Assembly: GCF_009184635.1 (NCBI RefSeq)
Contig: NZ_WELI01000006.1
Coordinates: 124,001-188,000, forward strand
Direction: 5' to 3'
Length of the DNA stretch: 64,000 bases
From: Rudanella paleaurantiibacter
GTDB lineage: Bacteria > Bacteroidota > Bacteroidia > Cytophagales > Spirosomataceae
The notes under the pieces: model-generated
What the model was told of the DNA's origin: nothing
Seen by the model: the letters and a program-made list of their open reading frames with translations, nothing else
Databases searched by the model: none
Part shown: positions 7,499 through 35,065 of the stretch, piece by piece
Numbering within the stretch: the first letter of the stretch is position 1
Layout: each line of letters begins with the position of its first letter
Program-made: the position numbers and the translations under genes

Positions 7499-8521
7499 TT
7501 ACCGGTACTTTGTCAGCGTAGCCTGCAACGACTCGCGCATGGCGTCGACCAGGCTTTGGGGGGCCAATACGGTAAGGTCTTCGCCGTAGCTGCGCAGGTG
7601 CATCATCAGGTCGCGGTTGGGTGCGAGCCGAAGTCGAATCCGGCACTCGGTATCCGTATCGAGCACAACCTCCTGACTTTGGTGAATGGGCTTGGCTTTC
7701 ACGTAACGGCCGCGCAATGGTGTAAACGATAACAGAATCTCCTCAACCGGGCCGCTGCTGTCAGTAATGCCGTAGATGTGCTCAAACAACTCGCTCACAC
7801 TCGCCATCACGGCCGGGGGTACATCGCAGGGGTTGTCGGTAATTTCCAGGTCGCTCATCCGGTCGAGGGCGAAGGTGCGCTCTTTGCCTGTTTTCTCGTC
7901 GTACCCAATCACATACCAACTGTCGTATACCTCGCGGAGCAAAATGGGGTGTAATGTTCGGAGGGGCAGGGCCTCTTTGCGGGCGGGGGCCGGTTCGTCG
8001 CTTTCGTGTTTGCTGTAGCGGAAGGTAATCTGCCGGTTCTGATTCACGGCTCTGACCAATATAGGCACGTAATGCCGGTTGCCACCCAAAATTCGCTCTT
8101 CTACGTATACCACTCGCCGGGTGGGCATATCGGTTTTCACTTCCCGGATAATGTCGAGGCTCTGCCGTACTTTCTGAAGAGCGTTGCTCAGTTCATCGGC
8201 AACTGAGGCCCCCTGCGTAGCGGCCAACACCTCGCGGGCGTAGTCGAGGGCTTCCATATCGTCGGGGTTAAGCATCAGCTGCAACAACCGAAACGAGGGA
8301 TCGGTGTAATAGTATCCATTGGCGCGTTTATCGTAGGCAATGGGCGCGTCGTGGTCTTCGCGCATGCGCTGAATGTCTTTTTCAAGCGACGAAATAGACC
8401 GGATACCGCATTTCTCCTGACAAAGCTCAAACAACCTTTGCTTGGAATACCGGCGGGGGTAGCGACTAATGACCTCGTCAATGAGTCGGTAACGCTGAAA
8501 GGCAGATCGGGTGATAGGCAT
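7499..8521 (-). CDS. HTH-WYL domain transcriptional regulator
   Basis: The protein (340 residues from MPITRSAFQRYRLID) has an N-terminal DeoR/HTH_11-like winged helix (about 1-65; SKQRLFELCQEKCGIRSIS), a linker and a C-terminal WYL domain at about 145-230 (PILLREVYDSWYVIGYDE), then a WCX-type tail. WYL proteins sense nucleic-acid or nucleotide ligands and often repress stress, CRISPR or defence genes. An upstream in-frame start (at 8548) is less likely, because the extra nine codons lie in a dispersed repeat and are unlike the family. A -7 box CAAAAATA (minus strand TATTTTTG) lies at 8609-8616. The gene is divergent from the orphan gene at 8704. Confidence 0.88.
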   Translation of the reverse strand: MPITRSAFQRYRLIDEVISRYPRRYSKQRLFELCQEKCGIRSISSLEKDIQRMREDHDAPIAYDKRANGYYYTDPSFRLLQLMLNPDDMEALDYAREVLAATQGASVADELSNALQKVRQSLDIIREVKTDMPTRRVVYVEERILGGNRHYVPILVRAVNQNRQITFRYSKHESDEPAPARKEALPLRTLHPILLREVYDSWYVIGYDEKTGKERTFALDRMSDLEITDNPCDVPPAVMASVSELFEHIYGITDSSGPVEEILLSFTPLRGRYVKAKPIHQSQEVVLDTDTECRIRLRLAPNRDLMMHLRSYGEDLTVLAPQSLVDAMRESLQATLTKYR

Positions 8522-8583: not shown

Positions 8584-8608
8584 TAGCAAAAAAAATTCTG
8601 TATTACAC

Positions 8609-8616
8609 CAAAAATA
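8609..8616 (-). promoter_or_regulatory. Probable promoter -7 box for the WYL regulator
   Basis: On the minus strand TATTTTTG fits TAnnTTTG. It would give a leader of about 85 nt that contains the palindromic repeat at 8529-8583. Confidence 0.5.
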
Positions 8617-8620
8617 GGGG

Positions 8621-8674
8621 AAGAACGGAAAAAGGTTACGGTCTGGGGGGCGCAGCTTTGTAGCGAACAATAAA
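8621..8674 (+). promoter_or_regulatory. Conserved upstream element shared with the paralogous gene at 27359
   Basis: Bases 8621-8674 align without gaps to 27291-27344, with 42 of 54 positions identical by hand count. Shared blocks include AAGAACG, AAAAAG, TTACG, TTTGT and TAAAC. The CAGCTTTG here and CAAATTTG there could be variant -7 boxes. The block ends about 29 nt before this start codon. Confidence 0.65.
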
Positions 8675-27290: not shown

Positions 27291-27344
27291 AAGAACGTAA
27301 AAAGATTACGTTTTGGGGGTTGCAAATTTGTCATGAACAGTAAA
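27291..27344 (+). promoter_or_regulatory. Conserved upstream element of the orphan family (copy B)
   Basis: Ungapped alignment with 8621-8674 gives 42 of 54 identities. Possible variant -7 box CAAATTTG at 27323-27330. The block ends 14 nt before the start codon at 27359. Confidence 0.65.
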
Positions 27345-27358
27345 CAACAATACTGATT

Positions 27359-27823
27359 ATGAACACGGCAACGCTTCTTTCATCTTCGCAACGAATCGCC
27401 CCGGCAACGCAGCATCTGATGCGCTGGCAGGAGCCGTTGGCTACGCGCCTGCGCTACGGCCACAACTTGCCGGGTCAGGTAGCGAACCGGCTTCTCAACG
27501 TTGAACTCGGTCTGTACCTCCTGGCTGAACTGCTGCCCATGGCTCCGCCCGAAGCCCTGCCCGATTTGCTCAACGGCCGCGAGTCGGCTTATCTGAAGCG
27601 GCCGGTCTGGACACCTAAGCAGCATCGGTACCTCAGCCGTTGCCAGTTGTTGCTGGCTCCGTATAAAGACCGGGCTACCTGGTTCAATGCCCTAGCTAAG
27701 TACAACACGCTGCCTATTGGCCCCCGGGTGTTTACGCTCAATGCCAACGGGGTGTACCGGTCGGGTGTAGATATGTACGCGCTACACGAGCGGCTCATTT
27801 TGTTCCGCCGGGCGCTCATGTAG
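27359..27823 (+). CDS. Small uncharacterised protein, orphan family copy B
   Basis: This 154-residue protein is homologous to the one at 8704-9117 over the central ~71 residues (VELGLYLLAELLPMAPPEAL; RPVWTPKQHRYL; CQLLLAPYKD). It is rich in leucine, arginine and alanine, has no signal peptide or membrane helix, and matches no domain known to me. The C-terminal third (GVYRSGVDMYALHERLILFR) is not clearly shared. Both copies keep the same upstream block and lie beside an 'ACAGGATT' repeat, suggesting duplication together with regulatory DNA. A terminator follows at 27849. Confidence 0.78.
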   Translation: MNTATLLSSSQRIAPATQHLMRWQEPLATRLRYGHNLPGQVANRLLNVELGLYLLAELLPMAPPEALPDLLNGRESAYLKRPVWTPKQHRYLSRCQLLLAPYKDRATWFNALAKYNTLPIGPRVFTLNANGVYRSGVDMYALHERLILFRRALM

Positions 27824-27937: not shown

Positions 27938-28147
27938 AAAGCTGGCTAAAGTGGCTTAACTTAACGTGAATTGTGCATACTGGCTGACGCCAAGGCCTTC
28001 GACAGGCTCAGGCTGACTAGGGACTCTCAAGCCGAATGTCAGCCTGAGCCTGTCGAAGGCCTTGGCGTCAGCAAACATTTGTTAAACAAGTAGTTGCAAT
28101 ACAAATTATCCATAATTCACGTTAACTTAAGCCGTCTGAGCCAGTTT
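27938..28147. repeat. MITE-like element with long terminal inverted repeats and 'CCTTCGACAGGCTCAGG' core (copy 1)
   Basis: The outer arms (CTGGCTAAAGTGGCTTAACT and rightwards TTAACGTGAATTGTGCAT) face near-complementary arms ending ATAATTCACGTTAA and on to 28147. Inside, GCCTTCGACAGGCTCAGG and its inverse form a second stem. An asymmetric ~45-bp spacer lies in the right arm. A shorter relative lies inverted at 34953-35065. Confidence 0.7.
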
Positions 28148-34952: not shown

Positions 34953-35065
34953 ACTAACGTGAGTTATGGATAGTTTGTATTGCAACTAGCTGTTTAACAG
35001 ACAATTGCTGACGCCAGGGCCTTCGACAGGCTCAGGCGTCAGCAATCATGCATCATTCACGTTAA
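34953..35065. repeat. MITE-like element (copy 2, inverted and shorter)
   Basis: The ends CTAACGTGAGTTATGGAT and ATCATTCACGTTAAAC match the ends of the 27961-28125 element. The interior keeps TTTGTATTGCAACTA, GTTTAAC, GCTGACGCC and CCTTCGACAGGCTCAGG, but only one copy of the core. Confidence 0.7.

Follow-up and report, generated by a model that had tools for sequence, protein, structure and literature searches.

In Rudanella paleaurantiibacter, a relative of Spirosoma that lives in soil, two paralogous genes are preceded by a conserved 54-base block, most likely a genetic switch in which the landing site of a regulator is fused to a promoter, and through which a WYL-type regulator would control scattered genes. 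The block carries an inverted repeat held at a fixed distance from a -7 box, it stands before several gene families, and it co-occurs exactly with, and is physically linked to, orthologs of a divergently transcribed gene for a transcription factor with a WYL domain and a WCX extension. We consider it probable that the block is the composite promoter of a regulon, on which a dimer of the WYL/WCX protein would sit on the repeat, near -32, and activate transcription through the -33 contact. The two copies lie in a stretch of 64,000 nucleotides, hereafter the window (G000:C29:124001-188000), which belongs to a genome of 6.72 Mb (G000) that contains two PF18155 genes and three close copies of the block. 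The coordinates of the features discussed below are collected in table 1.

The resemblance between the two blocks of the window is real. Their ungapped alignment gives 42 identities over 54 positions, as the first-pass annotation of this DNA had stated, when the top same-strand pair with members at least 100 bases apart reached only 34 to 36 identities in 12 dinucleotide-preserving shuffles of the window. Elsewhere in the window, both strands being scanned, the best similarity to either block was 30/54. The window also holds comparable pairs, namely one direct pair (43377/43767, with 44/54) and four inverted pairs (42 to 47), three of the latter having arms that lie close together or overlap. 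The same annotation had noted that the flanks of the two blocks differ, that both blocks end shortly upstream of start codons, and that both include CANNTTTG, all of which is borne out by the sequence comparison and by the positions in table 1. A GGGGG run is conspicuous in this pair but, because its conservation stops at the genus, we do not count it as a defining part of the block. As a side observation, two long imperfect inverted repeats around GCCTGAGCCTGTCGAAGGCCTTGGCGTCAGC are found in the window (27964-28100 and 34984-35037), with a similar one on another contig (L016), and these are a dispersed palindromic repeat.

Table 1. Features of the window, with coordinates counted from its first base.
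Feature	Position	Strand	Basis
Block, operator plus promoter of the long paralog	27291..27344	+	42/54 identities with 8621-8674
Operator core AACGTAA-AAAGA-TTACGTT, inverted repeat, perfect over 7 bp per arm	27294..27312	+	direct reading
Variant -7 box CAAATTTG	27323..27330	+	spacing to the repeat constant in 66/66 blocks; -7 consensus from the excerpt of PMC9723704
Putative 5' untranslated leader, 24 nt	27335..27358	+	start placed from a -7 box at -12 to -5
Long paralog, 154 aa, PF18155 (pPIWI_RE_Z)	27359..27823	+	Pfam E 3.6e-15
Block, copy 2	8621..8674	+	identity to 27291-27344
Copy-2 operator core AACGGAA-AAAGG-TTACGGT, imperfect repeat	8624..8642	+	direct reading
Variant -7 box CAGCTTTG	8653..8660	+	family alignment and direct reading
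Short paralog, 137 aa, PF18155	8704..9117	+	Pfam E 3.5e-15
WYL and WCX transcription factor, 340 aa, proposed regulator	7499..8521	-	PF13280 E 5.4e-14, PF25583 E 4.2e-13

The two genes behind the blocks had been described as orphans; they are paralogs rather than unrelated genes (50% over 78 aa, E 2e-24), both products being well above the cut-off of the Pfam family PF18155 and both matching the pPIWI_RE_Z model of PADLOC. No match was returned by an NCBIfam search of the PF18155 proteins, by a PDB sequence search with P0001 as the query, or by Foldseek at E <= 0.001 with a PF18155 model (8 sequences, pLDDT 78), and the best VIA-align score of this model (Z 4.8, among hits that include MarR-type regulators and RecQ cores) falls in the common range of the tool. 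PF18155 is found in 39 of the 150 genomes of the family, which we take to be the Spirosomataceae of GTDB (NCBI taxonomy places Rudanella and Spirosoma in Cytophagaceae). These 39 genomes represent 7 of 36 genera and mostly carry two copies each, for a total of 79 matches, and a phylum-wide draw retrieved the domain in 3 of 395 genomes, all three of them from Spirosomataceae.

The paralogs share the domain Z model (Pfam PF18155, PADLOC) with the pPIWI-RE island, in which the genes for a REase-fold protein, a DinG helicase, and pPIWI-RE itself are described as lying in a row (excerpt of PMC3702460). Unlike in that island, this three-gene order is not found around the paralogs, and the pPIWI-RE gene (PF13032) is missing from G000 and was detected in a single one of the 150 family genomes (G142), so that we reject the membership of the paralogs in a pPIWI-RE island. 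Because pPIWI-RE went undetected in 149 of the 150 genomes, the Pfam name of PF18155 is not readable as a function. In G142 (C34:302823-309247), the pPIWI-RE gene lies 5 kb from a third PF18155 match, apart from the pair, and perhaps forms with it a true three-gene island that exists beside an orphan pair.

We collected 76 PF18155-type proteins from G000 and 37 other genomes, leaving out the two near-identical proteins of G001 and the G142 match beside the pPIWI-RE gene, and called a block wherever a 15-base core was matched with at most four mismatches. A block was found upstream of 66 of the 76 genes, at invariant spacing, which lends support to the earlier suggestion that a shared regulator acts on a multi-copy family. 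As for the remaining genes, five long ones (L074, L083, L087, L098, and L103) and a short one (L089, some 220 bp away) apparently come second behind a block-bearing paralog, judging from their positions; two long ones (L075 and L076) have a block copy broken by an indel; and no block was found upstream of two extra paralogs (L085 and L101).

The consensus of the 66 blocks reads AGAACGTAA-AAAGR-TTACGTTCT, followed by a weakly conserved stretch and then by NAnnTTTG. Its arms match as reverse complements for nine bases, with weak conservation at the outermost one. TTTG follows TTACG at a distance of 21 nt in every block, and the predicted start codon lies 39-108 bp after the first base of the block. 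The A and the TTTG of NAnnTTTG are invariant in all 66, and the first T is degenerate. The first-pass annotation had proposed CANNTTTG as a possible variant -7 box, a reading that is strengthened by the constant spacing and by the fit of NAnnTTTG to TAnnTTTG, the -7 box for sigma-A reported in a flavobacterium, where it occupies -12 to -5 (excerpt of PMC9723704). With the box so placed, the 7-bp arms would span about -41 to -23 and the centre of the repeat would lie near -32, and transcription in the window is expected to start near 27335. Sigma-A promoters of Bacteroidota also have a -33 TTG/TTTG element, which the block is without; because a comparison set of 23 ordinary promoter-like sites showed no TTG enrichment either, at any offset (maximum 2/23), this missing -33 box is uninformative.

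A sequence-only profile made from 39 blocks (R1) was run on four genomes of the genus and on the 150 family genomes, the best 37 candidates per genome being scored in the latter. At E <= 0.01, it returned at least 113 rows in 44 of the 150 genomes, namely all 39 that have PF18155 plus five in which there is a single weak row (4.5e-4 at best). All 74 rows at E < 1e-7 fall within the 39 PF18155 genomes, 68 of them at most 190 bp upstream of a PF18155 match. Since the blocks that built the model match by construction, the informative outcomes are that strong rows are missing elsewhere and that other genes were found. Four of the six strong rows located elsewhere lead to a protein of ~80 aa (in G000, in G001, and before a second gene copy in G020 and G045), another leads to a PARP gene (G056), and the last is an additional site within the WYL/short region of G031. 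By comparison, a relaxed 19-base pattern gave 21 matches in G000 (16 of them at 2 mismatches) versus 13 for its reversed control, so that the profile scan alone is informative. The one-family scope of the earlier suggestion was too narrow, as blocks also stand before genes for the ~80-aa protein, DUF1801, VOC, PARP, and JetA-like proteins, and the reading that only one family is concerned can be rejected on G000 itself, whose third block, 6.6 kb before the window, precedes the gene of an 80-aa protein of another family. Because it precedes several gene families, the block marks a regulon rather than a single family.

Thirty sites remote from PF18155 starts were examined, drawn from the strong rows (4 of 74), the weaker rows (25 of 39), and the genus scan (one row). 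Because 14 of the 113 rows, all with E > 1e-4, were left out and only the best candidates of each genome had been scored, the targets named below are a minimum. Ten of the sites precede a VOC/glyoxalase-fold protein and four the ~80-aa protein (one per genus genome); three precede a RibD_C-like protein at some 250, 270, and 610 bp, a doubtful link; two each precede DUF1801, JetA/DUF3375-like proteins, and a short reading frame ahead of a TetR-like gene; two (G000 and G001) sit in a gap between convergent genes; and the others are the G031 site and single sites before PARP, GIY-YIG, ankyrin-like, and GNAT genes, the last followed by a VOC gene. Pfam confirmed a single representative for each of VOC, JetA, RibD_C, DUF1801, GIY-YIG, PARP, and GNAT, and PADLOC also confirmed JetA; the ~80-aa protein is without a family, and the remaining identities were assigned by eye. 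No recA-, ssb-, or similar gene was recognised downstream of the sites inspected. TA-N3-TTG occurs at offset 17 in 17 of the 30 sites, at offset 16 in one, and nowhere else from 5 to 59, 12 sites being without it, several of which keep TTTG without TA. In six sites the R1 match ends before model position 42 and leaves the -7 box unscored; the box is present in all six, at offset 17 in five and 16 in one (L126, L185, L195, L196, L197, and L198, of which L197 and L198 are homologous).

Two kinds of sites in this collection call for a separate mention. The block between convergent genes in G000 is a good one (L175:3850-3890, that is G000:C29:457848-457886, minus strand) with a counterpart kept in G001 (L122); no normal gene lies behind it, and a small RNA or a very short reading frame may start there. 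In G003 (L123) and G002 (L124), a weaker block is followed by a frame of ~16 codons and then, as judged by eye, by genes for a TetR-like regulator and a TolC-like efflux protein.

In G000, the likely targets are the two PF18155 paralogs, the ~80-aa gene upstream of the window, and, on a second contig, a DUF1801 gene; those on the first contig are scattered across 34 kb or more, and every target has a block to itself. In relatives, the regulon likely extends to PARP and VOC genes and, in two genomes, to JetA-like ones. While the VOC, RibD_C, and DUF1801 families are uninformative, PARP and JetA, together with the analogy to other WYL proteins, point to DNA damage or defence. Among seven proteins submitted to PADLOC, JetA (L185) was the sole defence-system match beyond PF18155 and WYL.

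The gene of the proposed regulator starts 182 bp from the start of the short paralog, in divergent orientation. Its WYL domain and its C-terminal WCX extension are both above the Pfam cut-offs, the Pfam scan gave no match to HTH models at E <= 1, and PADLOC returned its WYL model and, more weakly, CRISPR-associated WYL-like models. Relatives of this gene are present in 12 of 17 stretches compared, the five without one (L134, L174, L176, L177, and the second part of the window) having the long or the ~80-aa gene only. Across the family, orthologs (75-100% identity, the next match being at 32%) occur in 39 of the 150 genomes, which are related (7 genera, one family) and are not 39 independent events. 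These are exactly the 39 genomes with PF18155 and strong blocks, and every one of them has a strong block that points away from the WYL match, at 18-323 bp on its upstream side. Within one genus (g26), G028 has the WYL ortholog, PF18155, and a strong block, and its congener G049 has none of the three. On these genomic grounds, we infer that the WYL protein is the regulator that binds the block. On the minus strand of the window, at 8590-8625, a perfect TATTTTTG box faces the WYL gene beyond the repeat, at 18 versus 21 nt, and such a WYL-facing box was seen by eye in both G000 and G001; the regulator may control its own gene.

The PARP domain, PF00644, was detected in 21 of the 150 genomes, with 19 of the 39 WYL-positive ones and 2 of the 111 others (Fisher 1.9e-11, relatedness being ignored). 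By position, 18 of these 19 genes have a PF18155 gene no more than about 1.5 kb away, and the 19th, in G056, carries its own block (L179). All three PARP-locus proteins scanned have the PARP domain, with WGR above the cut-off in one and below it in two, and the search of the four genus genomes yielded no PARP. The remote PARP of G056 starts with MSHTQRPQ, and a short PF18155 protein of Fibrella (L137) with MTQTQRPQ, a likeness that would fit a joint copying of the promoter and the first codons.

From these elements, we propose that a dimer of the regulator would bind the inverted repeat, centred near -32 and set at one fixed distance from the NAnnTTTG -7 box, and that the bound protein would support or replace the -33 contact of RNA polymerase and so activate transcription as DriD does in Caulobacter, the signal being possibly single-stranded DNA that arises from DNA damage or phage attack. 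According to the excerpt of PMC12340889, DriD of Caulobacter crescentus is a WYL activator of an SOS-independent DNA damage response, and its sites overlap the -35 element and keep a single distance to the -10 box, in promoters with a poor -35. The arrangement seen here resembles it in its WYL regulator, its pseudo-palindrome over the -35 region, its fixed distance to the core box (a constant 21 nt in 66/66 blocks, which would put the centre near -32 for a -7 box at -12 to -5), and its small scattered regulon. The differences concern the phylum, the core box, which is NAnnTTTG here, the operator (AGAACGTAA-N5-TTACGTTCT versus ATACGAC-N7-GTCGTAT), and the targets (PF18155, the ~80-aa protein, PARP, and VOC versus didA, bapE, recJ, and dnaG), as far as the same excerpt goes. 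PafBC, a second WYL-family activator, is described in the excerpt of PMC11804915 as acting in mycobacteria by sigma adaptation, between sigma domain 4 and DNA; it is a heterodimer with a -26 motif, whereas one gene and an inverted repeat near -32 are found here. The solved WYL proteins nearest to the regulator by sequence include PafC (7p5x, 3.1e-7) and DriD (8tp8, E 4.5e-12), the DriD match spanning residues 183-333 only, which is the WYL/WCX part general to WYL proteins. A WYL activator is favoured because of the promoter geometry of DriD and PafBC and because DriD and PafC are among these relatives, and the constant distance between operator and core box over unrelated genes likewise favours an activator that touches polymerase. 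By analogy, then, the regulator would activate rather than repress, and it likely senses single-stranded DNA as a signal of damage or phage attack, as predicted from DriD.

The same operator and the same WYL protein could also make a repressor of the BrxR/CapW type, covering the promoter until phage attack or damage releases it, a reading that we deem unlikely but worth weighing. BrxR is a WYL regulator encoded beside its targets, which uses 11-bp inverted repeats with a 5-bp spacer, as here, and represses a defence island (excerpt of PMC9122601); a 5-bp-spacer repeat that covers about -41 to -23 is placed where a bound dimer could block polymerase; and a JetA-like (Wadjet) gene lies downstream of two sites. 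However, a repressor needs no exact distance to the -7 box, and the spacing is identical in 66/66 family blocks and in 17 of the 18 other sites with TA-N3-TTG. The BrxR site is moreover placed downstream of the predicted -10 in that excerpt, whereas the repeat is here upstream of the -7 box and phased to it, and the targets are scattered.

It is improbable that another dimeric factor, for instance the ~80-aa protein, reads the repeat and that the WYL gene is a linked passenger or a target. The ~80-aa family has a block upstream in all four genus genomes, it is present in 31 of the 39 positive genomes (in the stretches fetched), and its model, built from 2 sequences with low confidence, has three helices and a beta hairpin resembling a winged helix. 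Yet the mean pLDDT of this model is 61 and its fold search gave no usable match, when the WYL ortholog adjoins a strong block in 39/39 genomes. A relative of the ~80-aa protein is moreover found in 20 of 21 PARP loci (L201-L221; e.g. L208, L166, L172, and L211), including behind PARP in G027 (66% complete), where WYL ortholog, PF18155, and block were not found. The ~80-aa protein and PARP look like an older functional pair.

An alternative sigma factor of the ECF type that would use the repeat as its -35, no activator being needed, is very unlikely: a conserved upstream element at fixed spacing would also be typical of a sigma-specific promoter, but all 66 blocks have NAnnTTTG, an element of the sigma-A kind, on the downstream side, and we know of no ECF -35 element that is an extended inverted repeat, which we count against this reading. 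The leader RNA evoked by the first-pass annotation, or any hairpin acting on the mRNA, we reject as having hardly any chance of being right: the repeat could form a 9-bp hairpin and 85.5% of cells pair, as in any DNA palindrome, but this pairing comes without covariation above shuffles (2 double-changed cells versus a mean of 2.4; score 0.057 versus 0.055), one arm has an uncompensated T to G change at position 2, the loop AAAG is about as conserved as the stem, and the repeat lies upstream of the -7 box. The block is best read as an operator plus a promoter, not as a leader RNA. There is likewise next to no chance that the likeness of the blocks is a functionless leftover of gene duplication, for, despite the paralogy of the genes, the identity of long and short blocks between genomes is on a par with that within a locus (0.638 and 0.629), and the block persists in 7 genera and stands before unrelated genes at other loci too.

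Spirosoma is a genus that includes radiation-resistant species. With the WYL activator as the preferred reading, we tentatively suggest that the relatives of Spirosoma may have an SOS-independent DNA-damage or phage regulon, in which a highly conserved WYL activator, probably sensing ssDNA, would act through an operator standing in for the -33 contact of TAnnTTTG-type promoters, and whose targets would be orphan pPIWI_RE_Z genes, PARP and its small partner, VOC, and sometimes Wadjet. WYL-controlled promoters are a kind already known, and among the open-literature matches listed none describes a WYL-controlled regulon in the Spirosoma group, this operator, or this target set. The damage response of Spirosoma has been ascribed to a Crp/Fnr master regulator inferred from UVC transcriptomes (excerpt of PMC10036542). 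If our proposal were true, a domain that takes its name from pPIWI-RE islands would gain both a regulator and a promoter, a bacterial PARP would be tied to a WYL regulator, and there would be a handle, in the form of a testable lead, on the way in which the Spirosoma group may respond to DNA damage or phages.
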